Assembly: GCA_030746295.1 (NCBI GenBank)
Contig: JASLMY010000075.1
Location: 1-19,557, forward strand
Direction of reading: 5' to 3'
Source: Alphaproteobacteria bacterium
Lineage (GTDB): Bacteria > Pseudomonadota > Alphaproteobacteria > GCA-2731375
DNA length: 19,557 bases
Every line of letters starts with the position of its first letter. Position 1 is the first letter of the stretch. The notes beneath the pieces are model-generated. The model worked only from the letters and a program-made list of their open reading frames with translations, was not told where the DNA came from and did no database searches. Shown here one piece after another: positions 1,587-18,375 of this stretch. A program made the translations under genes and the position numbers.

Positions 1587-1637
1587 GACTCCGGGCGGCG
1601 ATCGGCAGGGCATATCGGCGTCGATCGGATCGGAGAC

Positions 1638-3542: not shown

Positions 3543-5353
3543 CGATCAGGGGCGCGATCGCGGGTGGGCTCGCCCTCCTGGTCCTGATCCATGTCGCGAT
3601 CCTCGCCGTCGGCCGCCAGCCGCTCGCCGAGCGCGGGCTGAGCGGCCCCGATTCCTACACCCGCATGGTGCAGGTGGGTGAGCTCTGGCGGAGCGGCGAA
3701 TGGCACCAAGCGACCCTGCCGCGCAGCAACACGCCCTTCGGCGAGCCTCGGGTCTGGACCCGCGCCTTCGATATCGTGCTGCTGGCGGGCGCCTTGGTCA
3801 TGACGCCGGCGGTCGGCTTTGACACCGCACTACATCTCTGGGCCCTACTGGTCGGGCCATTGCTGCATCTGGCGGCACTGGCGGCGCTGCTTTGGGCGGT
3901 GGCGCCGTTGTTGGGTGTCGAGGCGCTGGTCTATCTCGCCGTCCTGTTCCCGTTCCAGGTCTCGGTCACGGCCCAGTTCATGAGCGGGCGCCCCGATCAC
4001 CATGCCTTGCAGGCGCTTCTCTTCGTCGTCCTGGTGGGCCTCGGCATTCGTCTCCTGGCCGACGTGGCGCGGCGATCGGTGGTGGCGCTGGCGGCACTGG
4101 CGGCGGCGGCGGCGCTCTGGGTCAGCGTCGAGGGCCTGCTCGTGGTCGGGCTCGTCTTCGCCGCACTGGGTCTGGCGTGGACCGGGCGCGGCCTGGCGGT
4201 GGCGCGCCGGGGCCTCGGCTTCGCCGCGCTGCTGGCTGCCGCTTTGATCGTGGTCCTGGCGATCGAGCGTCCGCCCGCACGCTGGCCGGCCGCGGACTAC
4301 GACCGCCTCTCGGCCGTGCACCTCTGGCTGGTGGTCCTCGTCGCCGGGGCTTGGCTGGTAGCGCTCGCGGGCGAAGCCTGGGCCCGGATCGTGATACCCC
4401 CTGGTTGGCGGGTGGTCCTGGCCGTGGCGCTCATCGGCGCCGTGGCGGCGGCGATGTGGCTCGTCTTTCCCGCCTTTTTCGGCGGGCCGATGGTGGCCGT
4501 GCCGCCGGAGGTTCTGGCGCTTTGGCAGCAGCACATCTCGGAGTTCCGGCCGGCGCTCGATCGGGCGAGCCTGGCGAACAGCCTACATCTGATCCTGGTC
4601 TTCCTCGGCCCGGCGCTGCCGGCACTGCTCTATCTGCCGTTTCTCGTCCGCCGCGCCGAGCCGTCGGCGCGGCGCGGCTGGCTCTTGCTTGGCCTGGCCC
4701 AGGCAGTTTATCTGCCGCTCTCGCTCTATCAGCTCCGGTGGGGGATCTATGCCGAATTGTTGAGCCTGCCGATCTATGCCCGGATCCTGCAGGATCTGGC
4801 GGCCGTCTTGCTGCGCCCCGCCATCGCCGCTCCGGTGCGTGGCCTGTCCAAGGCCGCACTGGTGCTGCTCTTCGCCCTCGGACCGGTCTCGCTCGGATGG
4901 CTGGCCCGGCCGGCACCGGCCCCGGACGTGGCGGGGGCGAGCGTCCAGTTCTGCGACATTCGCGCGGTCTCGGCCTACCTGATGCGTCCCGACACCTATG
5001 GCGATCGGCCGCGGCGCCTTCTCACCTACATCTTCGACGGCCCCGAGTTGCTCTACCGCACGCACCACAGCGTCGTCGCCACGCCGGACCACGCCAACGC
5101 CGAGGGCATTGCCGATACGCTCGCGTTCTTCGCCGCCGCCGACCCGGAGGCGGCACGAACGGTTGCCGCCAAACGCGGCATCGAGCTGTTGCTGCTCTGC
5201 CCGGCCGAGCGCGAGAGCCGACAGTATCTGAGGGAGGGAGAGGCCAGCCTGCTCGCGCGCCTGATCGCCGGCGCGCCGCCGCCCTGGCTGGCCCCGATGC
5301 CGCTGCCCGGCACGCTTGGCGACGATTATCTGCTGTTCGAAGTACGGCTTTAG
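3539..5353 (+). CDS. polytopic membrane protein, remote STT3/PglB-like (GT-C), copy 2
   Basis: A 604-residue paralogue of the preceding protein, similar along its whole length. Shared blocks are GPDSY (36-40), PRSNTPFGE (61-69), WTRAFD (73-78), DHH (153-155), the AIERPPA segment, YQLRW, LTYIFDGPE (495-503) and the C-terminal AKRGIEL–LLCP stretch ending in LLFEVRL. It lacks the 15 or so polar residues that start copy 1. Its ATG overlaps the stop codon of copy 1 (ATGA), so the two are probably made together, perhaps as a heteromeric pair or as enzymes with related specificity. The blocks kept in both copies are the best guide to functional residues. The 3' end lies only 10 bp from the end of the convergent GGDEF–EAL gene. 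Assignment limits are as for copy 1. Confidence 0.72.
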   Translation: MTIRGAIAGGLALLVLIHVAILAVGRQPLAERGLSGPDSYTRMVQVGELWRSGEWHQATLPRSNTPFGEPRVWTRAFDIVLLAGALVMTPAVGFDTALHLWALLVGPLLHLAALAALLWAVAPLLGVEALVYLAVLFPFQVSVTAQFMSGRPDHHALQALLFVVLVGLGIRLLADVARRSVVALAALAAAAALWVSVEGLLVVGLVFAALGLAWTGRGLAVARRGLGFAALLAAALIVVLAIERPPARWPAADYDRLSAVHLWLVVLVAGAWLVALAGEAWARIVIPPGWRVVLAVALIGAVAAAMWLVFPAFFGGPMVAVPPEVLALWQQHISEFRPALDRASLANSLHLILVFLGPALPALLYLPFLVRRAEPSARRGWLLLGLAQAVYLPLSLYQLRWGIYAELLSLPIYARILQDLAAVLLRPAIAAPVRGLSKAALVLLFALGPVSLGWLARPAPAPDVAGASVQFCDIRAVSAYLMRPDTYGDRPRRLLTYIFDGPELLYRTHHSVVATPDHANAEGIADTLAFFAAADPEAARTVAAKRGIELLLLCPAERESRQYLREGEASLLARLIAGAPPPWLAPMPLPGTLGDDYLLFEVRL

Positions 5354-5363
5354 GCCGGCCGTC

Positions 5364-7764
5364 TCAAGCGCTGGCGGCGCTCGCCTGGCCGTTGTGGGCG
5401 ATGACGAACTCGATGAAGGCGGCGGCGTGCAACGGCTTGCTGATCCAATAGCCCTGGGCCTCGTCGCAGCCCTTGGCGCGCAGAAACTCGAACTGGGACT
5501 CGTCCTCGACTCCCTCGGCGACGACGGCGAGGCGCAAGCTGTGCGCCAGATTGATGATCGCCGTAGTTATATTGGCGCTGTCGCCGTCGGTGATCACGTC
5601 CCGGACGAAGGTCTGGTCGATCTTCAGGCTGTCGATCGGGAAGCGTGACAGATAGGCCATCGAGGAATAGCCGGTGCCGAAGTCGTCGATCGCCAGGCTG
5701 AGGCCGAGCTCGCGCAGCTCTGACAGGATGCTGTTGGCCGACGCGCCCGTCGCCATCGCCATGCCTTCGGTGATCTCGAGCTCCAGGCTGCGGGGGTCGA
5801 TCCGGGAGTTCTCCATGGCATTCTTGATGACGTCGATCAGGTTTTCGCGCTTGAAGTCGGCCGGCGACAGGTTGAAGGAGATCTTCAGGCTCGGCAGCCC
5901 GGCATCGCTCCATTCCCTGATCTGCTGACAGAGCTTGCGCAGCACGGTGTCGGTGACCTTGGGGATCAGGCCGGTGTTCTCGGCGACCGGAATGAAAAGC
6001 CCGGGCGAGACCATGCCGCGTTCCTCGTGGTACCAGCGAACCAGGGCCTCGGCGCCGACGACGCGCCCGCTGGCGAGGTCGACCTTGGGCTGGAAGTTGA
6101 GGAACAGGTCCTCGGCCTCGAGCGCCTTGCGAAGGTCTTGCTCGAGGGCTTTGCGCTCCTGCACATCGGCGTTCATGTCCGAGTCGTAGAGCCGATACTT
6201 GTTCCGCCCTTCCTGCTTGGCGCGATAGAGCGCGAGGTCGGCGTTCTTGATCAGCTTGTCGGGCTCCACGTCGTCGTGCGGGAACACCGTGACGCCGATG
6301 CTGGTGCCGGTGAAAACGCGCTCGTCGCCGAGATCGAAAGGCTGCGCGAGGCTGTTGATGATCCGTCGGGCCAGCACCTCGACGCCGATTTCGCTGTTGA
6401 GGTTGGTCTGGATGATGCCGAACTCGTCGCCGCCGAGGCGGCAGACGGTGTCCGACCTTCGGGCGCATTCCAACAGCCGTTCCGCGACCTGCTTCAAGAG
6501 CGCGTCTCCGGCGGGGTGGCCGAGTGTATCGTTGACGTCTTTGAAATGGTCGAGGTCCAAGAGCAGCACCGCCACCATCCGCTCGATGCGGCCGGCGCTG
6601 CTCAGCGCCTCGGCCAGGCGTTCCTGAAAGACGACGCGGTTCGGCAGACTGGTCAGCGAATCCAGATTGGCGATTCGGCGCAAGGCTTCCTCCGAGCGCT
6701 GTCGCCGCTCGGCGATGCGATTGATGGTCTCGGCCAGCTTTCCGAACTCGTCGTCTCGCTCCATGGAGATGCGATAGCCGAGGTCGCCGCTGCCCATGGA
6801 CCGGGCGCCCTCGGTCAGGGCCACGATCGGCCTGACAATGCCGCGAATCAGAACCAGGGCCGTACTGGCGCCCATCAAGCCGCCGAACGCTGTCATGACG
6901 CTGAGGTAGATGATGACCCGGTCGATGCCATCGGCCACGTCTTTCCAGGTGGTGCGTCGCAGTTCCTCCAGCCGTGGCAAGGTGATCGTCTCGACATCGT
7001 CGGCGAGCGCCGCTATCGCCTTCTCGAAGTCGCCGACGGCGGCGAGCCGCCGCGTCCGCGGCCCCGACCACGAGCGCGGCCTGCCGGCGAACCTCGGCGA
7101 AGTCGGCCGCCAGGTCGCGGAACCACCGCTGGCCGGCGTCGCTGGTGCCGCCGGCCGAATAAAGCGAGCCCAGCGTCTCGAAACTCGTCTCGGCCTGCTT
7201 CAGCACCGGCTGGTAGGAGAGGCCCGGCGCGCCCGCGTAAGCGTTGATCGTGTTTTCCAGTTGGTGCAGCCGGGTCTGGACCTCGCGGGCACGGTTGCGG
7301 CGCTGTAGCGACCACACTTCGCCGGCGGGGCCGCCGCTCTCGATATAGCGATCGATTCGCTCGGAGGCCTTCCGGCCCGAGGACTGGAACAGCCGCAATG
7401 CGGCCTCTCTCTTCTCGCCCTCGTCCTTGGCCCCTGTGCCCAGTCGGCGCAACTCGTCCAGTCGTTTCGCGATCGCGTCACCGGCCGCGGCACCGATTGT
7501 GCCCAACTCGGCGTTCCGGGCCTGGGCTTCGTCCAGGGCGTCGAGCCATGCATCGCCGCCATCGCGCAGGCTCGGGACACTGGCCCGCAGGGCCCGACCG
7601 AGGCCTCTGACGGCGTCTGCTTGCCGGCCTTCGAACGCGGAAACACGGTCGAAGTCCGCCTCTGTCCGCGTGCTCAGCAAGGAGGCGACGGCGCTGGTGA
7701 TGAAGAAGAGAAATAGGAGGACGCCGAATGCCAGCGCTACCCGCTTCGCGATGCCGAAGGTCAT
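5364..7764 (-). pseudogene. membrane-bound GGDEF–EAL c-di-GMP enzyme, split by a frameshift
   Basis: Read from the ATG at 7764, the frame encodes a transmembrane helix (about residues 8-30) and a helical, presumably periplasmic, sensor domain to about residue 240. It then turns into an arginine-rich stretch. The proper continuation (EKAIAALADDVET, second membrane helix near 283-310, HAMP linker, GGDEF, EAL) lies in another frame ending at 5364. Removing one base gives 2,400 bases, a 799-residue protein. In that numbering GGDEF is at 444-448 with an RRSD inhibitory site just before it, and EAL is at 572-574. EAL-domain residues are intact (LELEITEG, DDFGTGYSS, AEGVED), so both cyclase and phosphodiesterase sites look functional. 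The ATG is the only usable start because an in-frame TGA lies close upstream, though the ribosome site is weak. A sequencing error, a real mutation or programmed shifting are all possible. Confidence 0.85.
7036..7060 (-). other. probable frameshift point in the GGDEF–EAL gene
   Basis: On the minus strand the N-terminal frame makes sense up to VVGAADAAA and then reads five arginines in a row. The other frame makes sense from LAAVGDFEKAIAALADD onward. The switch requires skipping one base within a GC-rich stretch of repeated gcc/gcg units, a typical place for a one-base insertion or a base-calling error. The wrong frame stays open to 5350, so it forms one 804-codon open frame whose last two thirds are not the real protein. 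Confidence 0.75.
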
Positions 7765-7926
7765 GCCCGGTCGCCCAGTGCCACGTCCACCTCAGTCGCG
7801 ACCGACGGCTCAATGTGACGAGGTCCGCGGCCCTGGCCTCGTCCCAAAAGACCGGATCCATCGAACCCGATCGCAACGGCTACGGTCGGTAGCCCTCGAC
7901 CCCGAAGGCGAATCATCTGGAAAATT

Positions 7927-7954
7927 ACTATCATCGGCGGGCCGAGCTTGTCCA
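7927..7954 (-). promoter_or_regulatory. candidate promoter for the GGDEF–EAL gene
   Basis: On the minus strand TGGACA (7949-7954, five of six match to the -35 consensus) and GATAGT (7927-7932, four of six match to the -10) are separated by 16 bases. The site lies in the 220-bp gap 7765-7984, the longest non-coding gap of the minus-strand block, about 160 bases before the ATG at 7764. The gap is locally AT-richer here. I see no convincing terminator in the gap. Inference from consensus only. Confidence 0.35.
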
Positions 7955-7984
7955 ACGAGGATGGTTTCGGCGGTGGCGGGGAAG

Positions 7985-9124
7985 TCAGTGCCGCTCGATC
8001 GTCAGCTCGAAGACGGCGCCGCGATAGACGATCAGGATCTTGGTGTCGCCGGCGGCGATGCGCGCGTTCAGCTTGGCGCTGTTCACGTAGTCGTGGTGCG
8101 TCACGTATTTGCCCATGCTCTTGTCGATTGCCTGGCCCGGTGCGGCGACCGCCTTTTCGATGTCGGGAAAGACGCCGCTCTGCATCTCGCCGTCGGGTAT
8201 GACGATCGCGCCCGCGCTGCGCGCGGCTTCGGCCTCGCTGCCCGAGAGGCGTCGCGCCGTGATCGTATCGGACTTCCGATAGTAGCCGAGGCGCTGCATT
8301 TCCTTACCCGTCCGCAGCCGGGCCTCGCCTTCCGGCAGCCCTTGGCTCTTGAATCTCCGCAGCGCCTCGGCATGGGCGGAGCGCATCGCTCTGAGGCGCT
8401 CGACCTCGGCGAAGATCGAGCGCTCCTCGAGCCAACGCGGCTCGGGCATGCCGTTGGGAAACAATTTGCGGTAGCGCGCGCTTTCGAGCTGGATGTCCAG
8501 GCCGCCACTGCCGTGATCCACGGCCAGGATGGCGAGCGGGTAATATTGGGGGCCACGCGGCGTCATCAGCTCTTTCCCGTCCCGGACAGCGTCCTCGTTG
8601 TAGCCCGTGGTGGTGAAATGGCCGTTTTGCCATGAATCGGTCTCCTCGAAGCTGTCGGTGAGGTTGTTCCAGCGACGGCGGAGGCCGAAACTCTCGGAGC
8701 GGGGGACCTTGGGCAGGCTGACGGCGACGGTGTATTCGAGGCCGCCATTCTCGGCCCAGCGGAGGCGGACCCGCGGGATGGCGTAAAGGCGGCCGCGGTA
8801 GTGCCTCAGGTGCCGGCCTTCGAGGGGCGAGGCGGGCCAACGCTTCAGCGCTTCGATGCTGCTGCTTTCAAGGTCCAGGCGGTTCAAGGAGAAGCGATCG
8901 CCGAGCACGTAGGCGTGTGCCGGCGGCGTGAAGTGCTCGTAGCCGAGGCCCCAGCTGATGCCTTCCGTCTCGCGGTGCACGAAGTAGATGCCGCTACCGT
9001 CCTGGGCGTAGATCGGGGCGTAGAAGCCTTCCAGCCGGTCGTAGCGCACCCGATAGACGACGCCCAGGCCAACCAGCCCGGCGATGACGACGGCGACGAG
9101 CAGGGCGACGAGCCATTTCGCCAT
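7985..9124 (-). CDS. membrane-anchored protein of unknown function
   Basis: A 379-residue protein I do not recognise. Residues 4-26 form one strong hydrophobic helix after a short Lys-containing start, so the rest is probably held on the periplasmic side by an uncleaved anchor. The remainder is hydrophilic and rich in aromatic and basic residues, with short blocks such as DGSGIYFVHRETEG (about 43-56), PRGPQYYPLAILAVDHG in the middle and GKYVTHHDYVN near the end. A charged helical stretch around residues 235-290 may be coiled or extended. There are no Cys-based or obvious catalytic motifs. It starts 17 bases after the HisI-like gene and is the last gene of the NadC-like run, so it is probably co-transcribed. 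Nothing in the sequence gives its role. Confidence 0.75.
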   Translation of the reverse strand: MAKWLVALLVAVVIAGLVGLGVVYRVRYDRLEGFYAPIYAQDGSGIYFVHRETEGISWGLGYEHFTPPAHAYVLGDRFSLNRLDLESSSIEALKRWPASPLEGRHLRHYRGRLYAIPRVRLRWAENGGLEYTVAVSLPKVPRSESFGLRRRWNNLTDSFEETDSWQNGHFTTTGYNEDAVRDGKELMTPRGPQYYPLAILAVDHGSGGLDIQLESARYRKLFPNGMPEPRWLEERSIFAEVERLRAMRSAHAEALRRFKSQGLPEGEARLRTGKEMQRLGYYRKSDTITARRLSGSEAEAARSAGAIVIPDGEMQSGVFPDIEKAVAAPGQAIDKSMGKYVTHHDYVNSAKLNARIAAGDTKILIVYRGAVFELTIERH

Positions 9125-9141
9125 CGTAGGCCGCCGGTGCC

Positions 9142-9510
9142 TCAGTGCTCGGCGCCCGCCACCTTGGCCGGCACCTCCTTATAGAAGCAGCTCAAGTAGC
9201 CGTGGCCGCAGACCGGGTGCTCGGGCACGGTCTCGAAGACGACGGTGTCGTCGTCGCAGTCGACCAGGACGCGGCCGATCCGAACCTCGTGGCCGTCGTC
9301 CTCGCCCATCCGCCAGACCCGGCCGAGGGTGCGGCGATAGAGCGTCAACAGCCCGGTCTCGCAGGAGAGGCGCCAGGCCTTCTCGTTCATGAAGCCGACC
9401 ATCAGCACTTCGCGCGTGTAGGCGTGTTGCAACACGCAGGGCACCAGGCCGCCCATCTTGTCGAAGTCCAGCGTCACCGGTTCGAAGACAGGACTATCGC
9501 TCGCTTGCAT
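9142..9510 (-). CDS. divergent HisI-like (phosphoribosyl-AMP cyclohydrolase family) protein
   Basis: A 122-residue protein of the HisI fold, about the length of stand-alone HisI. The metal-binding acidic cluster DCDDD (84-88) and the two zinc-type cysteines (Cys101 and Cys108, in VCGHGYLSCFY) match the family's DCDxD and CHTGxxSCF motifs. VLMVGFMNEKAW (35-46) matches the usual VLMLAYMN block. However, the substrate-side motif SRSRxxLWxKGxTSG is changed to RRTLGRVWRMGEDDG, and CHTG is changed to CGHG. HisI opens the purine ring of phosphoribosyl-AMP in histidine synthesis. The changes suggest a paralogue acting on a different phosphoribosylated ring. A GAGGAG lies seven to eight bases before the ATG. 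It is fourth in the NadC-like run, 20 bases after the amidohydrolase, and no other his gene is nearby. Confidence 0.85.
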   Translation of the reverse strand: MQASDSPVFEPVTLDFDKMGGLVPCVLQHAYTREVLMVGFMNEKAWRLSCETGLLTLYRRTLGRVWRMGEDDGHEVRIGRVLVDCDDDTVVFETVPEHPVCGHGYLSCFYKEVPAKVAGAEH

Positions 9511-9530
9511 CGTCTTCTCCTCATCCCAGC

Positions 9531-10790
9531 CTAGGTGTCCTGAAGCGTGTCCTTGTAGACCCGGCCGTCCTTCATCACCAGGCGCACGCGTCTCGCCTCC
9601 GCCAGGCCGCGGATGTCGTCGAGGGGGTCGCCGTCGTAGACGACGACGTCGGCGATCTTGCCCGCCTCCAAGGTGCCGAGGTCGGGATAGCCGAGGAACC
9701 GTGCCGCCGTTGCCGTTCCCGCGACGATCGCCTCCATCGCCGTCATGCCGAGGTAGTCGACCATGTAGGCGAGCTCGATCAGGTTGCGGCCGGTCAGCAG
9801 GCGGTGCGATTGGTCGGTGCCCATCGCCACCTTGACGCCGCGGCGAACGGCCTCCTTGAAGAGCGGGATCTGCCGCTCGAGGCCGGCCATGATGCGGGCC
9901 TCCTTACTGTCCTCGTCGGCGAGCTGTTGTGCCGCCCAGGCCCGGTCCTGACGGCGATGCTTGGCACCCTCGGGCACCAGGGCCAGCGTCGGCACCCACC
10001 AGGTGCCTTGCGACAGCATTTGATCGACGCATTCCTCGTCGAGGAACCAGCCGTGCTCGAGCGAGCGGATGCCGCCCGCGAGCGCGTTCTTGACGCCTTG
10101 CCGGCCCTCGGCGTGGACCGCGACATAGGTGCCCTTGGCGGCGGCCTCGGCCACCGCGACCCGGATCTCGTCCAGGCTGAACTGGGTCTCGTCGTAGTCG
10201 TCGGTCACCGAGGTGACACCGCCGGTGGTGCAGATCTTGAGGAAGTCGGCGCCGCGCATCAGGAACTCGCGGCAGACCCGGCGCATGCCGTCGACGCCGT
10301 CGGCGATGTTGTTCGGCAGCCAGCCGCGCTTGGGCACGTGAAAGCCCGCCGGCACGAAGCAGTCGCCGTGGCCGCCCGACTGACTGATCATGGCGATCGC
10401 GACCTGGAGGCGCGGCCCGGCGACGATGTCTTCCGCCACCGCTTGGCGAAAGCCGGCATCGGCGCCGCCGGTGTCGCGCGCCGTGGTGATGCCGCAGTGA
10501 AGCGTCCGGCGCAGGATCTCGGCCGAGCGGAAGACGTTGTAGGTGGCCGGGTTCTTCAGGTGCTGGCCATAGTCGCGCGCCCTGTAGCTGCAATGTAGGT
10601 GGCAGTCGACGAAACCGGGCAGGATGGTGCCGCCGCCGGCGTCGATCCGTGTTGCGTCAGTCGGCAACGCCACCGCGCTCGCCGCCCCGGCGGCGGCGAT
10701 TCGGCCCTCGACGATGACGACGACGCCGTCCTCGACCGGGTCGCGGCCGGTGCCGTCGATCAGCCTGCCGCCGACGATTGCCAGGCTCAT
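9531..10790 (-). CDS. metal-dependent amidohydrolase (prolidase/imidazolonepropionase-like)
   Basis: A 419-residue amidohydrolase-superfamily enzyme with the standard architecture: N-terminal beta-sandwich strand (VGGRLIDGTG), HxH on strand 1 in FVDCHLHCSY, a lysine that would be carboxylated in DFLKICTTGG, His in VAVHAEG, His in SLEHGWF, Asp in AMGTDQSH, and the C-terminal return to the sandwich (GKIADVVVYDGDPL). These features fit a binuclear zinc enzyme of the Xaa-Pro dipeptidase / imidazolonepropionase group, which cleaves amide or cyclic amide bonds. No signal peptide is seen, so it is cytoplasmic. I chose the ATG at 10790, preceded by GAGGAG and GAGGA, over an in-frame ATG at 10814 that adds eight Arg/Gly-rich residues. 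It begins 25 bases after the decarboxylase-like gene. The substrate is unknown. Confidence 0.88.
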   Translation of the reverse strand: MSLAIVGGRLIDGTGRDPVEDGVVVIVEGRIAAAGAASAVALPTDATRIDAGGGTILPGFVDCHLHCSYRARDYGQHLKNPATYNVFRSAEILRRTLHCGITTARDTGGADAGFRQAVAEDIVAGPRLQVAIAMISQSGGHGDCFVPAGFHVPKRGWLPNNIADGVDGMRRVCREFLMRGADFLKICTTGGVTSVTDDYDETQFSLDEIRVAVAEAAAKGTYVAVHAEGRQGVKNALAGGIRSLEHGWFLDEECVDQMLSQGTWWVPTLALVPEGAKHRRQDRAWAAQQLADEDSKEARIMAGLERQIPLFKEAVRRGVKVAMGTDQSHRLLTGRNLIELAYMVDYLGMTAMEAIVAGTATAARFLGYPDLGTLEAGKIADVVVYDGDPLDDIRGLAEARRVRLVMKDGRVYKDTLQDT

Positions 10791-10815
10791 TCCTCGGGCT
10801 CCTCTCGTCCGCACA

Positions 10816-11544
10816 TCACGCGTATTTCAACGCCTCCTCGGCGAAGCGGCGTGCCATCGTCGCCGGCCGTCGGGCGCCGATGATCGAGCGGCCGATGATG
10901 GCGTAGCGCCGGCAGCCGTCGGCGGCCCCGAAGGCGTCGTCGATGCTGCCGCCGAGCGTGCCGATCCCCGGCAGGAAGACCGAGGGTCGCTCGAAGCGCT
11001 TTCGCACCTTGCCGACATGGCGACGCACTTTTCGCGGCTCGTTGGCGGGGATGATGACATGGTCGACGCCGGCCGCCGTCGCCTCGTCCAGGATGCGCCC
11101 CAGCGCGCCGTCGTGGACGAAGCCGCCATGGCGGGCGCGGTATTCGGGGTAGGGCAGCTCACCGCCGACGAGCGGCGTCATGCCGCGCTGGCGCGTCCGC
11201 TCGGCGAACTGGCGCACCGCCTCGCGGCCGGCCAGCGGGAACAGAACCAGGCCGTCGGCCCCGGCATCGCGGCAGGCCTTGGTGAAGCCGTCCGACATCG
11301 AGGGGATGTCGGTTCCGGCCTTCTGGTGGTCGTAAAGCACCGGCAGGTCGGTGAGCCCACGCACCGCGTCGATCGCCGGGCCGAGGCCGAGACGGAGCGC
11401 GATCACGGCGCCGAGCTTGTAGCCGACCACGCCGTCCACCTCGCAGGTCGCCGCGACGATGCGCTTCAGCCGCTCGGCGTCATCGACGTCCAGCGCCGGG
11501 ATGATGCCGGCCTCGGCGGTGATCAGGGGGCTGCGCCTCGGCAT
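10816..11544 (-). CDS. orotidine-5'-phosphate decarboxylase-like protein (OMPDC superfamily)
   Basis: A 242-residue TIM-barrel protein of the OMP decarboxylase superfamily. Strand 1 carries IIPALDV (Asp19), strand 2 VVGYKLG (Lys43), strand 3 LYDHQKAGTDIP (Asp72, Lys75, Asp79), and the phosphate-binding end has PGIGTLGG (192-199) and IIGRSIIGA (Arg219). The usual bacterial PyrF signature DLKxHDIPNT is replaced by the longer DHQKAGTDIP form, which I associate from memory with archaeal-type members. Known family members decarboxylate OMP or act on other phosphorylated sugars or acids. It lies nine bases after the NadC-like gene and before the amidohydrolase, with no pyr gene nearby, so a role other than UMP synthesis is plausible. 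Fold confident, reaction not. The ATG has a weak GGTAGG upstream. Confidence 0.82.
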   Translation of the reverse strand: MPRRSPLITAEAGIIPALDVDDAERLKRIVAATCEVDGVVGYKLGAVIALRLGLGPAIDAVRGLTDLPVLYDHQKAGTDIPSMSDGFTKACRDAGADGLVLFPLAGREAVRQFAERTRQRGMTPLVGGELPYPEYRARHGGFVHDGALGRILDEATAAGVDHVIIPANEPRKVRRHVGKVRKRFERPSVFLPGIGTLGGSIDDAFGAADGCRRYAIIGRSIIGARRPATMARRFAEEALKYA

Positions 11545-11553
11545 GCGCGACGC

Positions 11554-12444
11554 CTACCCGGCGGCCGACTGGCGCTCGGCGATGATGCGCCGGGCGCTGG
11601 GCTTGATCTCGCCCATGTCCATGCTGGCGTCGATGGCGGTGACACTGTGGGTGAGCGCGCCCACCGAGATGATATCGACGCCGGTGGCGGCAATCGGCAC
11701 GATGGTCTCTTCGTTGATGCCGCCCGAGGCCTCGGTCAGCACCCGGCCGTCGACCAGCTTCAGCGCCTCCGTCATCTCGCCGAGCGTCATGTTGTCGAAC
11801 ATGATGACGTCGACGCCGACGTCCAACGCTTCCTGCACCTGCTCGAGGGACTCGCATTCGAGCTCGATTTTGAACGTGTGCTGGGCGTGATGGCGCAGAG
11901 TCTCGACGGCCGGCCGGATGCCGCCCGCCGCCTTGATGTGGTTGTCCTTGACCAGGATCGCGTTGTGCAGGCCGAAGATGTGGTTGTGGGCACCGCCGAC
12001 CCGGACTGCGTATTTCTGCAAGAGCCGCACCCCGGGCACGCCCTTGCGGGTGTCGGTGACCCGGGTGCCGTAGGGTTTCACCAGCTCGACATAGCGCCGC
12101 GTCTTGGTGGCGATGCCCGACATGTACTGGATCCAGTCCAGCGCTACGCGCTCGCAGGCGAACAGGACCCAGGCCTTGGTCCGGATCTTGAGCAAGACGT
12201 CGCCGGGTGCCACTTCCGTGCCGTCCTCGACCATCCAAGTGACCTCGGCCTCGCGGTCCAGCGTCTTCACGGTCTCGTCGGCCAGCAGCAGGCCGCAGGC
12301 GATGCCGGCCTCCTTGACGTATATCTGGGCCTCGCCCGGCTGCGCATCGTCGACCAGAAAGCCGCCCGTGGTGTCGCCGGGATAGAGCTCTTCCTCCAGC
12401 GCGCGACGGATCGCGGGCCCGATGGTGAAGCGGTTGAGTTGCAT
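11554..12444 (-). CDS. nadC: NadC-like nicotinate-nucleotide pyrophosphorylase (quinolinate phosphoribosyltransferase)
   Basis: A 296-residue type II phosphoribosyltransferase. NadC decarboxylates quinolinate and joins it to PRPP to make nicotinate mononucleotide. Family blocks are present in order: YPGDTT (21-26), VEDGTEVAPGDVLL (72-85), ERVAL (98-102), MSGIATKTRRYV (108-119), DTRKGVPGVR (131-140), GGAHNHIFGL (150-159), VKDNHI (165-170), FDNM (216-219), EASGGI (238-243) and SVGALTHS (260-267). Two positions differ from my recollection of the family: TRKTTPG is here TRKGVPG, and the usual Asn in ERTALN is Asp. I start at 12444, where GGGAGGAGG precedes the ATG; an upstream in-frame start at 12510 adds 22 unrelated residues. 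It heads the five-gene run, without nadA or nadB. It may be the genome's ordinary NadC or a paralogue (as ModD is) with another acid substrate. Confidence 0.85.
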   Translation of the reverse strand: MQLNRFTIGPAIRRALEEELYPGDTTGGFLVDDAQPGEAQIYVKEAGIACGLLLADETVKTLDREAEVTWMVEDGTEVAPGDVLLKIRTKAWVLFACERVALDWIQYMSGIATKTRRYVELVKPYGTRVTDTRKGVPGVRLLQKYAVRVGGAHNHIFGLHNAILVKDNHIKAAGGIRPAVETLRHHAQHTFKIELECESLEQVQEALDVGVDVIMFDNMTLGEMTEALKLVDGRVLTEASGGINEETIVPIAATGVDIISVGALTHSVTAIDASMDMGEIKPSARRIIAERQSAAG

Positions 12445-12446
12445 GG

Positions 12447-12455
12447 CCTCCTCCC
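12447..12455 (-). promoter_or_regulatory. strong Shine–Dalgarno that fixes the nadC-like start
   Basis: The minus strand reads GGGAGGAGG followed by two bases and ATG at 12444. This is the best ribosome site in the window and decides the start over the in-frame ATG at 12510, which has none. Confidence 0.7.
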
Positions 12456-12463
12456 TTGCCTTT

Positions 12464-12478
12464 GGCGACGCCGTCGCC
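12464..12478. repeat. inverted repeat in the nadC-like leader
   Basis: GGCGAC–GCC–GTCGCC is a perfect 6-bp inverted repeat with a three-base loop, 20 bases before the nadC-like ATG. It would form a small hairpin in the leader RNA or act as an operator. In such GC-rich DNA a chance occurrence is possible. Confidence 0.4.
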
Positions 12479-12481
12479 TGA

Positions 12482-12510
12482 ACAATAGGACACCCGCCAA
12501 TGCTATCCAA
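12482..12510 (-). promoter_or_regulatory. candidate promoter for the nadC-like operon
   Basis: On the minus strand TTGGAT (12505-12510) and TATTGT (12482-12487) are separated by 17 bases, about 38 bases before the start codon. The -35 matches three of six and the -10 four of six, so this is weak. It is favoured mainly by its position in the 150-bp divergent gap 12445-12594. Confidence 0.28.
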
Positions 12511-12551
12511 TCCGTCTCACCGCGGGTGACACGATTTGACGGCATCGGCTA

Positions 12552-12574
12552 TTCAGAGATCTGAAGGTCACCTT
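12552..12574. repeat. two overlapping inverted repeats before the TauE/SafE-type gene
   Basis: TTCAGA–GA–TCTGAA (12552-12565) is a perfect 6-bp inverted repeat, and AAGGT–C–ACCTT (12564-12574) is a perfect 5-bp one sharing two bases with it. Both lie 21-43 bases before the permease start, in the gap shared with the divergent nadC-like operon. The arrangement resembles a transcription-factor operator, but no regulator gene is adjacent and the factor is unknown. Confidence 0.4.
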
Positions 12575-12594
12575 CCCGATCCCGAGGTCCGACG

Positions 12595-13350
12595 ATGCTG
12601 CCCTTCGAGCCGACTTTCGCGAGCTTCTTGCTGGTCGCGGTGGCGTTCTTTGCCGCCGGGCTCTGCAAGGGGGTGCTCGGCGTCGGCACGCCGTTGGTGG
12701 CGGTGCCGATCCTGACCGGCGTCATGCACCCGGCGACGACGATATCGGTGCTGGCGGTACCGATGGTGCTGGCCAACATCTGGCAGAGCGTCGAGGGCGG
12801 CGGCGCCGGCGAGGTCGTGCGTCGCTTCTGGCCGGCGGCACCGGCGAGCCTGGTCGGTGCGGTGATCGGGGCGCAGTTCCTGACCGAGGTCGACCCCGCC
12901 TCGATACAGCTTCTGATCGGCGCCGTCCTGGCGCTGTTCGCGGCGAGCCAGTTCAAGAGCTTCGTCGTGCCCCATCCGGGCGACCGGGAGGTCTGGCTGA
13001 CCCCCTGCGTCGGCTTCGCTTCGGGCTTGCTGGGCGGCATCACCACCTTCTTCGGGCCGCCGCTGATCCTCTATCTGGTGGCGCTGAGGCTCACCAAGGA
13101 CGCCTTCGTCGCCAGCATCGCGCTGCTCTATCTGGTCGGCACCGTGCCGCTGTTCACGGTGTTGGCCTGGAAGGGCGTGCTCGGGCCGTCCGAGCTCGTA
13201 ACCTCGCTCGCCGGCACGGTGGTCATCCTCGCCGCCATGGCGCTCGGCCGGTGGCTGCGCCAGCGCGTCCCTCAAGAGGCCTTCCGCCGGGCGCTCTTCG
13301 TGGTCCTGGTGCTGATGGGCTTGAACATGATCCGCCGCGCCCTGATGTAG
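12595..13350 (+). CDS. TauE/SafE-type membrane permease
   Basis: A 251-residue, highly hydrophobic protein with about eight membrane segments in two repeated halves. Each half opens with a glycine-rich signature: GLCKGVLGVGTPLVAVPIL (22-40) and GFASGLLGGITTFFGPP (about 143-159). This is the pattern and length of the sulfite exporter TauE/SafE (DUF81) family, which moves sulfite, organosulfur compounds or organic anions across the inner membrane. A GAGG sits seven bases before the ATG. The gene is divergent from the nadC-like operon and shares its control region, so it may carry that pathway's substrate or product; this is inference. Its 3' end is seven bases from the convergent enolase-family gene. 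Confidence 0.88.
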   Translation: MLPFEPTFASFLLVAVAFFAAGLCKGVLGVGTPLVAVPILTGVMHPATTISVLAVPMVLANIWQSVEGGGAGEVVRRFWPAAPASLVGAVIGAQFLTEVDPASIQLLIGAVLALFAASQFKSFVVPHPGDREVWLTPCVGFASGLLGGITTFFGPPLILYLVALRLTKDAFVASIALLYLVGTVPLFTVLAWKGVLGPSELVTSLAGTVVILAAMALGRWLRQRVPQEAFRRALFVVLVLMGLNMIRRALM

Positions 13351-13357
13351 GGCTGCG

Positions 13358-14542
13358 TCAGAGCGGTTCCGGCATCATTTCAAGGTGCAGCAGATTGTCC
13401 TCATAGGGATGCGCGGCCGCGACCGCCTCGTCCAGCTCGACGCCGAGGCCGGGGGCGGTGGGCGGGATGATGTAGCCATCCTCCCAGCGTATCGGCACCT
13501 TCAGGATCTCGGCGTGGAAGCCGCCCCAGGTCTCGATGCTCTCTTGGATCAGGAAGTTGGGGCTGCAGGTCGCGAGCTGGACGTTGGCCGCACCTTCGAT
13601 CGGCCCGCAATAGAGATGCGGGGCAATCTGGGCGTAGTGCGCTTCGGCCATGCCGGCGATCTTCTTCGCTTCCAGGATGCCGCCGACCCGGCCCAGCGCC
13701 GGCTGCAGGATACTGGCCGCCTGATGGCGCAGCAGGGCGGCGAACTCGTGCTTGGTGGCGAGCCGCTCGCCGGTGGCGACGGGGATCGGGGTGGCAGCCG
13801 CGACGCGGGCCATCTCGACGGCGTTCTCGGGCGGCACCGGCTCCTCGAACCAGAGCGGGTCCACCTTCTCGAGCCGCTTGGCGAGGCGGATGGCGCCGGC
13901 CGCGGTCATCTGGCCGTGCGTGCCGATCAGGAGGTCGCAGCGGCCGCCGACCGCCTCGCGCACCGCCACCGCGATCGCCTCTGCGTTCTCCAAGGCGTCC
14001 AGCGACAGTTGCCGCGGATCGAAAGCGGAGTAGGGGCCGACGGGGTCGAACTTGAGGGCGGTGAAGCCCTGGTCGGCGTAGACGGCGGCCCGCTCGGCCG
14101 CGATCGCCGGCTCGGTGTAGGCCCGCAAGTCCTCGGGCGGGTCGGGGTAGACATAGGTGTAGGACCGGAGCCGGTCGTGCACCTTTCCGCCCAGCAGGTC
14201 GTAGACCGGCCGGTCGAGCGCCTTGCCGACGATGTCCCAGCAGGCCATCTCGATGCCGCTCAAGACCCCCATAGCCGAGAGATCGGGGCGCTGGCTGTAG
14301 CCGCTCGAATAGACCGTTCGCCAAAGCCGCTCGATTGCGAACGGGTCGGCGCCAATGACATGGCGCTGGCAGACGTCCTCGATCATGCCGACGACCACGT
14401 TGGGGTGGAACGGCACGCCATAGACCTCGCCGACGCCCTCGATGCCGCTATCGGTCGTCAGCTTCAGGAAGACCCAATAGCGCCCACCGTTGCCGGGCGG
14501 CGGGTTTCCCACCACCCAGGTATCGAGGTCGGCGATCTTCAC
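13358..14542 (-). CDS. enolase-superfamily sugar-acid enzyme (mandelate racemase/muconate lactonizing type)
   Basis: A 394-residue enolase-superfamily protein: N-terminal capping domain to about residue 130, then a barrel. Catalytic landmarks are Lys164 in ALKFD, GTHG with His209 at the strand that usually carries the first metal ligand, Glu233/234 in WFEEP, Glu259 in ATGER and His309 in APHLY. The overall sequence, notably GPYSAFDPRQ, GTHGQ and YCGPIEGAAN, resembles proteins annotated as sugar-acid dehydratases and 3,6-anhydro-L-galactonate cycloisomerase, so an aldonate-type substrate is likely. The start is GTG at 14542 with no clear ribosome site, 18 bases after the acyl-CoA dehydrogenase stop, which suggests translational dependence on the upstream gene. 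The exact reaction is not decided. Confidence 0.88.
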   Translation of the reverse strand: MKIADLDTWVVGNPPPGNGGRYWVFLKLTTDSGIEGVGEVYGVPFHPNVVVGMIEDVCQRHVIGADPFAIERLWRTVYSSGYSQRPDLSAMGVLSGIEMACWDIVGKALDRPVYDLLGGKVHDRLRSYTYVYPDPPEDLRAYTEPAIAAERAAVYADQGFTALKFDPVGPYSAFDPRQLSLDALENAEAIAVAVREAVGGRCDLLIGTHGQMTAAGAIRLAKRLEKVDPLWFEEPVPPENAVEMARVAAATPIPVATGERLATKHEFAALLRHQAASILQPALGRVGGILEAKKIAGMAEAHYAQIAPHLYCGPIEGAANVQLATCSPNFLIQESIETWGGFHAEILKVPIRWEDGYIIPPTAPGLGVELDEAVAAAHPYEDNLLHLEMMPEPL

Positions 14543-14560
14543 GGGCCGGCGCTCGCGCGC

Positions 14561-15739
14561 TCAGTTCGCCCGCATGATCCGCCTGGCCAGCGCCCAGCGA
14601 TGCACCTCCGAGGGACCGTCGTAGATGCGGAAGGCGCGGATGTCTTTGTAGATCTTCTGCACCACGGTATCGCCGGTGATCCCTAAGCCGCCGAGCGTCT
14701 GCACCGAGCGGTCGACGACCCGGCCGAGTGCCTCGGAGCAGACCACCTTGGCCATGCTGCTCTCGCGGCCGCCGCGCTCGCCCTGGTCCAGGACCCAGGC
14801 GGCGTGCCAGATGGCGAGGCGCGAGAGGTGCATCTCCATCTCGTTGTCGGCGAGCTGAAAGCCGATGCCCTCGTGCTCGCCGATCGGCTTGCCGAAGGCG
14901 TGCCGGCCGCGGGCGTAGGCGACGGCGATGTCGTGCGCCCGCCGGGCCGCCCCCAGCCAGCGCATGCAGTGGGTGAGGCGCGCCGGTGCCAGGCGCACCT
15001 GGGCATAGCGGAAGCCCTTGCCGACCTCGCCCAGGACGTCGGCGCGTGCGAGCCGGAGGTCGTGGTAGTCGACCACCGAGTGACCGCCGGTCAGGTTGCT
15101 GTCCATGGTCTCCAGCACGCGCACGTTCTCGATCCCCGGCAGGTCGGCGTCGGCCAGGAACATGGTGGCGCCGACATCCTCGCCCCGGGCGTCGAAGGTG
15201 CGGGCCATGATGATGTGGTAGGCGGCACCGTCGACGCCGGTGACGAGCCACTTGCGCCCGTTGATCACGTAGCCGTCGCCGTCTTCCCGCGCCGTCGTCT
15301 TCAGCATCGTCGGGTCGGAGCCGGCGCCGCCGTCGGGCTCGGTCATCGAGAAGGCCGAGCGCACCTCGCCCGCCGCCAGGGGCCGCAGGTACTTCTCTTT
15401 CTGCTCGTCCGAGGCCACGACCTCCAGCATGTGCATGTTGCCCTCGTCGGGGGCGGAGATGTTGAGGGCATGCGCCCCCAACGTCGAGTAACCCGCCTCC
15501 TCGAAGACGATGGCCTTGCCGACGTGGTCGAGGCCGAGGCCGCCATAGGCTTCGCCGACATGCGGCGCCAACAGGCCGGCCGTCCTGGCCTTGGCCATGA
15601 GGTCGGCGCGAAGCGCGTCGCTCGGCCCCTCGGCGTCCTGGCGCGCATCGCCCTCCATCGGCATCACCTCGTCGGCGATGAAGCTGGCGGTGCGCTGGCG
15701 CAGTTCCTCGTGCTCGGCCGAAATCGAAAAGTCGATCAT
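14561..15739 (-). CDS. acyl-CoA dehydrogenase, ACAD10/11-like
   Basis: A 392-residue flavoprotein of normal acyl-CoA dehydrogenase length. Blocks are AFSMTEPDGGAGSDP (FAD and substrate binding), YVINGRKWLVTG, the region around RHAFGKPIGEHEGI (flavin contact), QTLGGLGITGD and the C-terminal IYDGPSEVHRWALARR. In most family members the tyrosine-glutamate-glycine at this last site supplies the catalytic Glu; here it is YDG, with Asp374 in that position, as in the ACAD10/11-like branch. It introduces a double bond at C2-C3 of an acyl-CoA and hands electrons to ETF. AGGGA lies about eight to ten bases before the ATG. It starts 34 bases after selD. The acyl substrate is unknown. Confidence 0.92.
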   Translation of the reverse strand: MIDFSISAEHEELRQRTASFIADEVMPMEGDARQDAEGPSDALRADLMAKARTAGLLAPHVGEAYGGLGLDHVGKAIVFEEAGYSTLGAHALNISAPDEGNMHMLEVVASDEQKEKYLRPLAAGEVRSAFSMTEPDGGAGSDPTMLKTTAREDGDGYVINGRKWLVTGVDGAAYHIIMARTFDARGEDVGATMFLADADLPGIENVRVLETMDSNLTGGHSVVDYHDLRLARADVLGEVGKGFRYAQVRLAPARLTHCMRWLGAARRAHDIAVAYARGRHAFGKPIGEHEGIGFQLADNEMEMHLSRLAIWHAAWVLDQGERGGRESSMAKVVCSEALGRVVDRSVQTLGGLGITGDTVVQKIYKDIRAFRIYDGPSEVHRWALARRIMRAN

Positions 15740-15773
15740 CCTGGTTTCCCTGTCCCCGTCATCGGCCCTGGCG

Positions 15774-16820: not shown

Positions 16821-16839
16821 GGCTTGCTCCGCTCATCAG

Positions 16840-16860
16840 GTTGCCGGTCCCGCTGGCAAC
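16840..16860. repeat. inverted repeat just upstream of selD
   Basis: GTTGCC–N9–GGCAAC forms a 6-bp inverted repeat about 20 bases before the selD start codon, in the divergent gap 16821-17006. It would be in the selD leader. Confidence 0.4.
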
Positions 16861-16885
16861 CAGTCGGGATCATAGGCGAGGCCCG

Positions 16886-16925
16886 GCACCCCACACTATC
16901 GGGGTGCGGCGATTATTCGCACCCC
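16886..16925. repeat. three-part repeat forming mutually exclusive hairpins
   Basis: GCACCCC (16886-16892), GGGGTGCG (16901-16908) and CGCACCCC (16918-16925) lie in a row. The middle element can pair with the left one (7 bp, loop of 8) or the right one (8 bp, loop of 9) but not both. It lies between selD and the divergent binding-protein gene. It may be an operator with repeated half-sites, or a switch in the leader of either gene. On the minus strand a TTGACC (16939-16944) and an AATAAT (16912-16917) flank part of it, but their 21-base spacing is too long for a standard promoter. Confidence 0.55.
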
Positions 16926-17006
16926 TTGCATCCAAAAGGGTCAAAAAAAGCGTGCATTTCCGGCCTTTTCGTCGTACCAAGACGGCGTGGGTGCAAGGGC
17001 ACGGAT

Positions 17007-18293
17007 GTGTCGGTCAAACTGAAAAGAACAAGAGTTGCGGCGCGCTTGTCGATATGGGGCGCGATCGCGGCCGTGGCGTTGCAAGTTCTCCCGCTCCGGG
17101 CGGCCGAGACGGAGGTCCGGATCGGCGTCCTCTATCCCTTGAGCGGGGCCAGTGCGGCCGGCGGCGAGGCGGTGCTGGCCGCCGTCCGGGCCGCCCAGGA
17201 CATCGCCAACAACCGCCACGACACGGCCCTGCCGCTGGCGCCGGGCGCCGGCCTCCAAAAGCTGGACGGGGCCAAGGTCCGCCTCGTCGTCGCCGATCAC
17301 GGCGGCGACCCGAAGCGCGGCAGTGCCGAGGCCGAGCGCCTGATCGTCGAGGAAAAGGTGGCAGCCCTCTACGGTGCCTACCATTCCAGCGTCACCGAGG
17401 CCGCCAGCGCCGTCGCCGAGCGTCACGGCATCCCCTTCGTCACCGGCGAGAGCTCGTCCCCGAGGCTGCACCGGCGCGGCTTCAAGTGGTTCTTCCGCAC
17501 CGGTCCGCACGACGGCCACTACACCAAGGTGATGTTCGATTTCCTGAAGGATTTTCAGGCCAAGCGGGGGATCAGCTTCGCCACCGTTGCCATCTTGCAC
17601 GAGGACACCGCCTTCGGCGTCGACAGCGCTGCCGTGCAGGACGACCTCGCCGCCGCCCAGGGCCTCGTCGTGGTCACCAAGACCGCCTATCGGGCCAACG
17701 CCGACTCGCTGGTGGCCGAGGTCGAGGACCTGAAGGCGACCCTGCCGGACGTGCTGTTGCCGACCTCCTACGCCAAGGATGCGATCCTCTTCGTCGAGGA
17801 CGCCAAGCATCTCGGCTACAACCCCAAGATCGTCATCGCCCAGAACGCCGGCTACACGGACCCGACTTTCCTGAAGGCGGTGGGACCGGCCGCCGAGGGC
17901 ATCATCTCGCGGGCGCCCTTCGCCTTGGACATGGTCGACCGGATCCCGCTGATCCGGGACATGAACGAGATCTACAAGAAGCATTCCGGCGGCAAGGAGA
18001 TCTTCGATCCGCCGGCCCGCAGCTTCGTCGGCGCGCTGGTGCTGATGGAGGCGATCGACCGCGCCGGCGCCACCGACCCGGAGGCGATCCGCCAAGCCTT
18101 GCGCGAGACCTACATCCCGGCGAGCCAGATCCCAATGCCCTGGTTCGACATCGAGTTCGGCCCCGACGGCCAGAACACCGGCGTCGCCGCGATCCTGGCG
18201 CAATACCAGGACGGCCGCTTCTACACCGTCTACCCCTTCCGCTTCGCCGCTCGGCCGGTGATCTATCCGATGCCGGCCTGGTCGGCGCCCTGA
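17007..18293 (+). CDS. branched-chain amino acid-type ABC transporter substrate-binding protein
   Basis: A 428-residue periplasmic binding protein of the LivK type (Peripla_BP_6). I start at GTG 17007 because the next residues form a clear signal peptide: KLKRTR, a hydrophobic run to about residue 29, and a likely cleavage after RAA. An AAGGGC lies about six bases upstream. An in-frame ATG at 16824 would add 61 Cys/Arg-rich residues and overlap the control region. The mature part begins VRIGVLYPLSGASA, as expected for the family, and continues with YGAYHSSVTEAAS, IPFVTGESS and the hinge regions. These proteins deliver amino acids, urea, aromatic acids or similar to LivHMGF-type permeases, none of which is in the window. 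The CoA-transferase that follows may act on the imported acid. The ligand is unknown. Confidence 0.88.
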   Translation: MSVKLKRTRVAARLSIWGAIAAVALQVLPLRAAETEVRIGVLYPLSGASAAGGEAVLAAVRAAQDIANNRHDTALPLAPGAGLQKLDGAKVRLVVADHGGDPKRGSAEAERLIVEEKVAALYGAYHSSVTEAASAVAERHGIPFVTGESSSPRLHRRGFKWFFRTGPHDGHYTKVMFDFLKDFQAKRGISFATVAILHEDTAFGVDSAAVQDDLAAAQGLVVVTKTAYRANADSLVAEVEDLKATLPDVLLPTSYAKDAILFVEDAKHLGYNPKIVIAQNAGYTDPTFLKAVGPAAEGIISRAPFALDMVDRIPLIRDMNEIYKKHSGGKEIFDPPARSFVGALVLMEAIDRAGATDPEAIRQALRETYIPASQIPMPWFDIEFGPDGQNTGVAAILAQYQDGRFYTVYPFRFAARPVIYPMPAWSAP

Positions 18294-18375
18294 AGCGGGC
18301 AGGGGTGTTGCCAGGCGGTTGCCGATCGGCTTGACTCGGGCGCGACCCAATCGGCGAGCCTGATCGAACCGGAAC

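Follow-up and report, generated by a model that had tools for sequence, protein, structure and literature searches.

An unusual run of bacterial genes raises the question of why relatives of three housekeeping enzymes, namely the phosphoribosyltransferase NadC, OMP decarboxylase (OMPDC, PyrF) and the phosphoribosyl-AMP cyclohydrolase HisI, should be encoded together with an amidohydrolase, and what such a set could do. The window analyzed here, i.e., the whole stretch of 19,557 nucleotides, corresponds to contig JASLMY010000075.1 (positions 1 to 19,557). In the reading preferred here, which we hold with belief and doubt in about equal measure, positions 9142–12444 constitute a rare and patchily distributed cassette of repurposed housekeeping enzymes, where the phosphoribosyl group serves as a disposable activating handle for breakdown.

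Gene Organization of the Locus

Five genes follow one another on the minus strand, separated by gaps of 9, 25, 20, and 17 bases. The run starts with a NadC-like phosphoribosyltransferase of 296 aa (11554..12444; Pfam QRPTase_N and QRPTase_C), followed by an OMPDC-like protein of 242 aa (10816..11544; OMPdecase), an amidohydrolase with its ATG at 10790 (9531..10790; Amidohydro_1), a HisI-like metal hydrolase of 122 aa (9142..9510; PRA-CH), and, 17 bases downstream of the latter, a membrane-anchored protein of 379 aa lacking any Pfam match (7985..9124). The open reading frames and the Pfam results thus agree with the five-gene run outlined in the preliminary description. The 150 bases between the NadC-like gene and a divergent TauE/SafE gene (12445..12594) are a probable promoter region, and a search for a sigma-70-like match in this interval found none. 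On the plus strand, an ABC-transporter substrate-binding protein (16824..18293; profile match to Peripla_BP_6) scores 449 bits against a profile of cassette-linked binding proteins, a similarity that makes a tie to the operon possible. Molybdenum hydroxylase genes, which would be expected of the known hydroxylase-type catabolism of pyridine acids, were not found beside the cassette among the window ORFs tested. XdhB-like ORFs (cluster 40, named by eye) occur in 7 of the 80 loci fetched.

The predicted model of the 379-aa protein starts with a helix at residues 2–25, beyond which lie a beta-rich region and a helical one, an arrangement that fits the label "anchored". The protein is perhaps co-transcribed with the run. 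No sign that it belongs to the recurring set emerged from the contigs of the homologue lists, where contigs were equated by size and one longest contig was taken per protein cluster: its 58 listed homologues share only the window's own contig with the best 120 OMPDC-like and the best 120 HisI-like homologues, while these last two lists have 14 contigs in common.

Recurrence of the Cassette across Bacteria

The best 80 of 314 loci were kept, and the bacterial set among them comprises 41 loci (the window and 40 others) from five phyla. ORFs were called mechanically, so that gene starts and some neighbors in the relatives are approximate, and the family counts rest on score cut-offs chosen by the analysts. 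A phosphoribosyltransferase gene of the NadC or NAMPT family lies within 9.6 kb of the OMPDC-like gene in 35 of the 41 loci, being NadC-like in 30 and NAMPT-like in five. The NadC gene is found at most 1.25 kb upstream of the OMPDC gene in 18 loci, and the HisI gene directly downstream of it in 11. The partner genes encode an amidohydrolase (26 of 41 loci), an aldehyde dehydrogenase (25), a CinA/PncC-like protein (23), CobW-type metallochaperones (18), a HisI-like protein (12), a pyrimidine-5'-nucleotidase-type HAD protein (9), and a PRPP synthase (6). Genes for uptake and regulation are also present, i.e., a LivH-type permease (13/41) and a MocR-type regulator (11/41), together with PsuG-type (Indigoidine_A) and nucleoside-hydrolase genes; for each of the labels MocR, LivH, binding protein, and NAMPT type, one or two members were tested.

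The four families (NadC-like, OMPDC-like, amidohydrolase, and HisI-like) recur together, the pairing of the OMPDC-like gene with a phosphoribosyltransferase gene (35/41 loci) exceeding chance, and the expectation that the combination would reappear in distant genomes holds for five phyla. It does not extend to the exact order or to the five-gene set, since all four families share one locus in the window only (1/41). No fewer than 4 of the 30 genomes contain all of them (G018, G025, G026, and G028), a count for which the amidohydrolase was scored at the loci. Carriage of the cassette is low among the genomes sampled. HisI-like and CinA-like genes were never found at the same locus (0/35), although this exclusion amounts to only two switches on the OMPDC tree and two independent pairs (p 0.5).

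Altered Residues in the NadC-like and OMPDC-like Proteins

The window NadC-like protein passes the NCBIfam nadC model (TIGR00078) with 303.4 bits against a cut-off of 198.4, and yet it carries Ile at the position of Mycobacterium tuberculosis (Mtb) Arg162, RKG for RKT, and LD for LN. This is a general trait of the cassette: at the Arg162 position (human Arg161), located by motif and with one gap row left outside the NadC residue counts, Ile, Leu, Met, or Trp occupies 35 of 35 cassette-type rows, whereas all 16 second copies and three further ones have Arg. The positions of Arg105, Arg139, Lys140, and Lys172 are kept in all 35 cassette-type rows. According to passages of PMC4726147 and PMC3633916, Arg162 contacts the 3-carboxylate of quinolinate. 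In a tree from which both pieces of the split NadC of locus L018 were left out, the 34 cassette-type rows are separated from 16 second copies by one branch with 100/100 support.

A similar pattern is displayed by the OMPDC-like protein, where the Lys-Asp-Lys-Asp tetrad is conserved in 81 of 81 rows, in the window within the motif DHQKAGTD and together with the phosphate-binding Arg. Two other positions are altered, with Pro at the Ser127 position and Leu at that of Gln185 in the window. The former is Pro in 41/41 cassette rows versus Thr in 40/40 archaeal-type rows, and the latter is Leu or Met in 41/41 versus Gln in 40/40. Proline has no backbone NH and, thus, the contact between the Ser127 NH and O4 would be lost in the cassette proteins. 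Parts of PMC12395307 and PMC12874384 describe this NH as bonding to O4 of orotidylate. The window protein remains below both NCBIfam pyrF cut-offs (60.8 versus 208 bits and 28.2 versus 92.3 bits), and the cassette proteins form a clade apart from the compared copies in a tree built without locus L079.

Further Copies in the Genomes of Relatives

The simplest account would regard these genes as ordinary extra copies of NadC, PyrF, and HisI that keep their housekeeping activity and are grouped by chance or for dosage. Besides the window NadC-like protein, which scores above the nadC cut-off, this account can draw on the genomes themselves, since no second NadC with canonical residues was found in 6 of the 20 genomes with NadC in the cassette. 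Similarly, 3 of the 12 genomes with a HisI-like cassette showed no high-scoring second HisI; several genomes of these two groups are metagenome assemblies. However, the same partners recur in five phyla, the OMPDC-like and HisI-like proteins fall below their NCBIfam cut-offs, the substrate-reading residues are lost clade-wide, and other copies exist in most relatives. A further PF00215 (PyrF/HUMPS) match above cut-off is present in all 30 relatives' genomes (partial in G020, G028, and G030), a second NadC with canonical residues in 14/20, and a high-scoring HisI elsewhere in 9/12. Among the relatives, further copies elsewhere were thus found for the PyrF family (PF00215) throughout and for NadC and HisI in the majority. 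Because of these further copies and of the separate clades, the objection that the genes might simply be the canonical ones of their hosts does not apply to most relatives tested, and the NadC-, OMPDC-, and HisI-like proteins stand outside the compared housekeeping families in both phylogeny and substrate-reading residues. This account is, therefore, very improbable.

HisI-like, Amidohydrolase, and CinA-like Partners

The metal sites of the HisI-like proteins are intact, with the Zn/Mg ligands (Cys126, Cys142, Cys149, Asp125, Asp127, and Asp129 positions) kept in 13/13. All 11 canonical rows carry the motif SRS, for which all 13 cassette rows have RRT, and the TS of WTKGETS is replaced by Asp/Glu and then Asp/Gly in these 13 (DD in the window). 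In canonical HisI, the Ser113 position is kept in 11/11, while Thr112 varies (Thr in 8/11). As described in sections of PMC8102479, WTKGETS makes contact with the N9-phosphoribosyl group of HisI's normal substrate. The general base His143 is Gly in nine of the 13 cassette proteins, and a His directly follows this position in eight. The window protein scores below both NCBIfam hisI cut-offs (90.8 versus 126 bits and 94.8 versus 187 bits), and the cassette proteins form a clade apart from the compared canonical copies. The nearest PDB sequences of the amidohydrolase include prolidases, amide hydrolases, and ochratoxinase, and its metal-ligand motifs are present by eye. In four genomes, a second locus also has this gene next to a cassette-type NadC.

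The CinA-like partner of the relatives, absent from the window, has Thr at the catalytic Ser31 position in 23 of 23 members, while the Lys63, Tyr58, and Ser48 positions are conserved wherever they could be read. The S31A variant of AtCinA is reported as inactive in portions of PMC5384747. Hence, this partner may not be an NMN amidase, and the two members tested lie above the PncC_domain cut-off and below that of the NMN-amidase equivalog. NAMPT-type genes accompany the OMPDC-like gene at L003, L006, L007, L009, and L013. The L003 and L009 proteins exceed the NCBIfam cut-off of PRK09198 (named nicotinate phosphoribosyltransferase), and a NAMPT_N match was obtained for the NAMPT type.

These two families bring up the disposal of NMN or NaMN, and with it a breakdown of NAD's pyridine moiety, in which nicotinamide would be converted into NMN by a NAMPT-type or altered NadC-type enzyme, deamidated by the CinA-like or HisI-like protein, and finally decarboxylated by the OMPDC-like protein. 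The five NAMPT-family loci, the PncC-family gene in 23/41 loci, and the composition of L009, where the profiled families are NAMPT-type, OMPDC-like, and CinA-like only, are consistent with such a route. Nevertheless, the L003 and L009 genes may belong to normal NAD salvage and simply adjoin the cassette, that of L009 lies on the opposite strand, and the Bacillota NAMPT-like protein is only 24–27% identical to the proteins of these two loci. The exchange of the catalytic Ser for Thr in the CinA-like protein also argues against it. Moreover, decarboxylation of NaMN at C3 would proceed without the direct stabilization enjoyed by a carboxylate beside the ring nitrogen, and is disfavored on these grounds. 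Finally, cassette NadC has lost the Arg that, according to excerpts of PMC4726147 and PMC3633916, binds the 3-carboxylate, which NaMN also carries. Altogether, we consider NMN/NaMN disposal unlikely.

A Proposed Pathway for Heteroaromatic Breakdown

The gene families and their neighbors lead us to infer the substrate of the cassette, its reactions and their sequence, and its role in breakdown as follows. The NadC-like enzyme (a NAMPT-family enzyme elsewhere) would use PRPP to phosphoribosylate a small heteroaromatic acid or amide at its ring nitrogen, after which the OMPDC-like protein would take a carboxylate off the cationic ribotide. The HisI-like metal hydrolase would then add water beside the ribosylated nitrogen, opening the ring; at other loci, a CinA/PncC-like protein is encoded in its place. 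The amidohydrolase would cut an amide, before or after ring opening. In the relatives, an aldehyde dehydrogenase may take the resulting aldehyde, while a phosphatase, a nucleosidase, or PsuG-type enzymes may release ribose.

Known phosphoribosyltransferases of the NadC and NAMPT families act on pyridine acids or amides, and the presence of both families together with a PncC-family partner suggests that the ring is most likely of the pyridine type. Canonical NadC itself decarboxylates; thus, an additional decarboxylase would need either a diacid or a NadC reaction without decarboxylation. Since the Arg lost is precisely that of the 3-carboxylate, picolinate and dipicolinate, with a carboxylate beside the ring nitrogen, are candidate substrates, the latter being a major constituent of spores. 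The catabolic sense is suggested by the aldehyde dehydrogenase, PRPP synthase, HAD, LivH, MocR, PsuG-type, and nucleoside-hydrolase genes and by the low prevalence. The same genes weigh on a biosynthetic alternative, where phosphoribosylation and decarboxylation would yield an unusual nucleotide or coenzyme-like ribotide, as PyrE and PyrF yield UMP. This alternative is favored by the formally PyrE-PyrF-like core pair, by the CobW-type metallochaperones in 18/41 loci, and by the archaeal-type relatives, whose OMPDC gene also lies near a phosphoribosyltransferase-like gene (cluster 5 in 28/40 loci; PF00156 in 3 of 7 tested). However, the uptake, aldehyde dehydrogenase, 5'-nucleotidase-type, nucleoside-hydrolase, and PsuG-type genes of several loci point to breakdown, and a rare, patchy distribution is at odds with it, so that biosynthesis appears improbable.

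The specific proposal of a new catabolism, in which pyridine-type acids or amides would be phosphoribosylated instead of being hydroxylated or activated with CoA, is put forward tentatively. An OMPDC paralogue lacking the O4 hydrogen bond would then decarboxylate the cationic pyridinium ribotide, and a HisI-type metal hydrolase would open it with water. This proposal is made with rather more doubt than the general reading as a breakdown cassette. No description of such a pathway was found in the open-licence PMC literature searched. If true, the NadC, PyrF, and HisI families would have been rebuilt together into a PRPP-activated route that could cleave a heteroaromatic ring with no step requiring oxygen. 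Moreover, a natural OMPDC paralogue without the Ser127 NH and Gln185, with its tetrad kept, would serve to test the disputed share of ring stabilization versus other effects in OMPDC. Many of the homologues listed (best 120 each) are named plain OMP decarboxylase or phosphoribosyl-AMP cyclohydrolase in the source annotation, and such names on cassette-type proteins can mislead pathway reconstruction.

Comparison with Known Systems

Cassette NadC resembles canonical NadC in both QRPTase domains and in the Arg105, Arg139, Lys140, and Lys172 positions, but differs in its hydrophobic residue at the Arg162 position, in RKG and LD, and in its own clade. The core pair is formally like the PyrE-PyrF module, i.e., a phosphoribosyltransferase and an OMPDC paralogue, although the former is of the NadC or NAMPT type and the latter lacks the Ser127 NH and Gln185 (41/41). 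The HisI-like protein shares the PRA-CH domain, Zn cysteines, and Mg aspartates with HisI, and differs in the replaced SRS and TS phosphoribosyl-binding motifs, sub-cut-off scores, and separate clade. The CinA-like partner is related to the PncC/CinA NMN deamidase by its PncC_domain match and the Lys63, Tyr58, and Ser48 positions, and departs from it by Thr at the Ser31 position. Finally, the proposed strategy is akin to that of the C-P lyase pathway, where a ribose phosphate handle is attached to phosphonates before their breakdown, although the one enzyme link found here between the two is a weak similarity of the amidohydrolase to PhnM.

The gene run of the window

The preliminary description had proposed a five-gene run on the minus strand with gaps of 9–25 bases, and both its ORFs and its families were borne out: an NadC-like gene (12444–11554) is followed by an OMPDC-like gene (11544–10816), an amidohydrolase (10790–9531), a HisI-like gene (9510–9142) and, lastly, an anchored protein (9124–7985), the successive gaps being 9, 25, 20 and 17 bases. 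A TauE/SafE gene is divergent from the NadC-like gene, with 150 bases between them. The anchored protein, for which 58 homologues are listed, is without a Pfam model, and its confidently predicted structure (pLDDT 92.5) gave only weak, propeller-like matches.

Elsewhere in the window, a HAMP–GGDEF–EAL gene (5350–7764, minus strand) appears split between two frames, with the three domains in the frame of ORF 5364–6980 and the apparent N-terminal part in another-frame ORF starting at 7764, which looks like a frameshift or an assembly error. At 1638–5353 (plus strand), a family without a name has been duplicated locally: the tandem genes encode proteins 634 and 604 aa long that are hydrophobic by eye, have no Pfam match and share 46% identity. 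A selenophosphate synthase gene, SelD (15774–16820, minus strand; over cut-off), has an MR/MLE enolase-type gene and an acyl-CoA dehydrogenase gene beside it; none of the other window ORFs that were tested is a selenium gene. Neither tRNAs nor Rfam families above the gathering score were found in the window.

Recurrence of the cassette in bacteria

One scan of genome contigs, with an alignment of 30 OMPDC-like relatives as the query, gave 314 relatives, of which the best 80 were used. Half of them, 40, are cassette loci in bacteria, from Pseudomonadota, Mycobacterium (three), Bacillota (three), a cyanobacterium and a Desulfovibrio, while the remaining 40, mostly archaeal, differ in setting. 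Together with the window, this makes a sample of 41 loci which, being drawn with the OMPDC-like protein, is not neutral. Partners were counted up to 9.6 kb from the OMPDC-like gene with score cut-offs that we set, on mechanically called ORFs and, for several relatives, metagenome assemblies; family names are based on one or two members each. On this basis, the 41 loci include NadC-type (30) or NAMPT-type (5) genes, amidohydrolase (26), aldehyde dehydrogenase (25), CinA-like (23), CobW (18), LivH-type permease (13), HisI-like (12), MocR-type (11), pyrimidine-5'-nucleotidase-type HAD (9), PRPP synthase (6), PsuG-type (3) and nucleoside hydrolase (2) genes. At 18 loci, NadC precedes OMPDC by no more than 1.25 kb, and at 11 HisI is the next gene downstream. 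The OMPDC-like and HisI-like homologue lists have 14 contig sizes in common, which suggests linkage, short of proof.

No phosphoribosyltransferase gene was found within 9.6 kb at six of the 41 loci (L022, L034, L035, L038, L042 and L001, the last on a contig of only 3.8 kb). In the genomes of L022, L034, L035 and L042, an amidohydrolase adjoins a cassette-type NadC away from the OMPDC-like gene, at L134, L131, L132 (where the NadC was assigned from its profile score and its LD motif, with the NHx motif read only in part) and L130, respectively. Beyond the search centres, the cassette is rare, with 0/397, 2/395, 0/384 and 0/368 genomes in the sampled phyla and classes.

Recurrence in distant genomes, which the preliminary description had set as a check, was seen for the partner families, which span five phyla, but not for the window's exact gene set, which is unusual: amidohydrolase and HisI-like genes share a locus in the window only (1/41). 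NadC, OMPDC, amidohydrolase and HisI occur in one genome, across two loci, in at least 4 of 30 cases (G018, G025, G026, G028), a lower bound, as the amidohydrolase was looked for around loci rather than genome-wide. No locus with both HisI-like and CinA-like genes was seen among the 41, and six have neither; since this exclusion amounts to two changes on the OMPDC tree, in two independent pairs, it is a lead only. The Rhodospirillales genome G018 has two cassettes (L098 on C68, L010 on C60), one with the amidohydrolase and a PsuG-type gene, the other with the HisI-like gene.

Separation from housekeeping copies

Judged by sequence, the cassette NadC, HisI and OMPDC are unlike the copies with which they were compared. 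In the NadC tree, a single branch (100/100) separates the 34 rows of cassette type from the 16 second copies (30-genome set), and the HisI tree gave the same result for 13 cassette rows and 11 canonical ones. A quick OMPDC tree parts 41 cassette from 39 archaeal-type rows (SH-aLRT 100), four of the latter group being labelled bacterial.

Further copies elsewhere were found in most of the related hosts. All 30 genomes have a further match above cut-off to PF00215 (partial in G020, G028 and G030), a family that also takes in non-PyrF relatives, and the eight further proteins fetched all have the DxKxxD motif. A further NadC with canonical residues was found in 14 of the 20 genomes having a cassette NadC (11 plus 3 from two readings), and a second high-scoring HisI in 9 of the 12 with a HisI-like cassette. 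No such NadC was seen in six genomes, five without a second full match (G008, G017, G019, G023, G029) and one whose extra copies are cassette-type (G018), and no such HisI in three (G018, G020, G026).

The archaeal-type OMPDC group

The other 40 loci (L029, L037, L039, L040, L044, L046–L080), from ANME-1, Thermoplasmata and others, encode OMPDC proteins with a DHQKAGTDIP motif, near a phosphoribosyltransferase-like gene (cluster 5) in 28 of 40; PF00156 was reached by three of the seven tested. Other PF00215 ORFs were sought in 16 of these genomes: in the four that were tested, the domain is fused to an RraA or Fae domain, and four more that were fetched resemble these by eye, while that at L126 (G043, labelled bacterium) has a PyrF-like DAKRNDIG motif. 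In many archaeal-type hosts the true PyrF may therefore be the DHQKAGTDIP protein, possibly an unrecognised PyrF class. The cassette enzyme would then be a derived paralogue, a direction that we infer.

Proposed chemistry

The CinA-like partner, absent from the window, belongs to the NMN-amidase family, although the position of the catalytic Ser31 (S31A is inactive in AtCinA; PMC5384747) is Thr in 23/23 members. Among the PDB sequences closest to the amidohydrolase are amidases and prolidases. In the proposed pathway, a pyridine-type acid or amide would be phosphoribosylated, decarboxylated on the cationic ring and then hydrolytically opened, with the amidohydrolase acting before or after these steps. 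The partners, which include uptake systems, aldehyde dehydrogenase, nucleotidases and nucleosidases, suggest a role in breakdown. A pyridine-type acid or amide is the favoured putative substrate, since known NadC and NAMPT family members act on pyridine rings and the CinA-like partner is related to NMN amidases.
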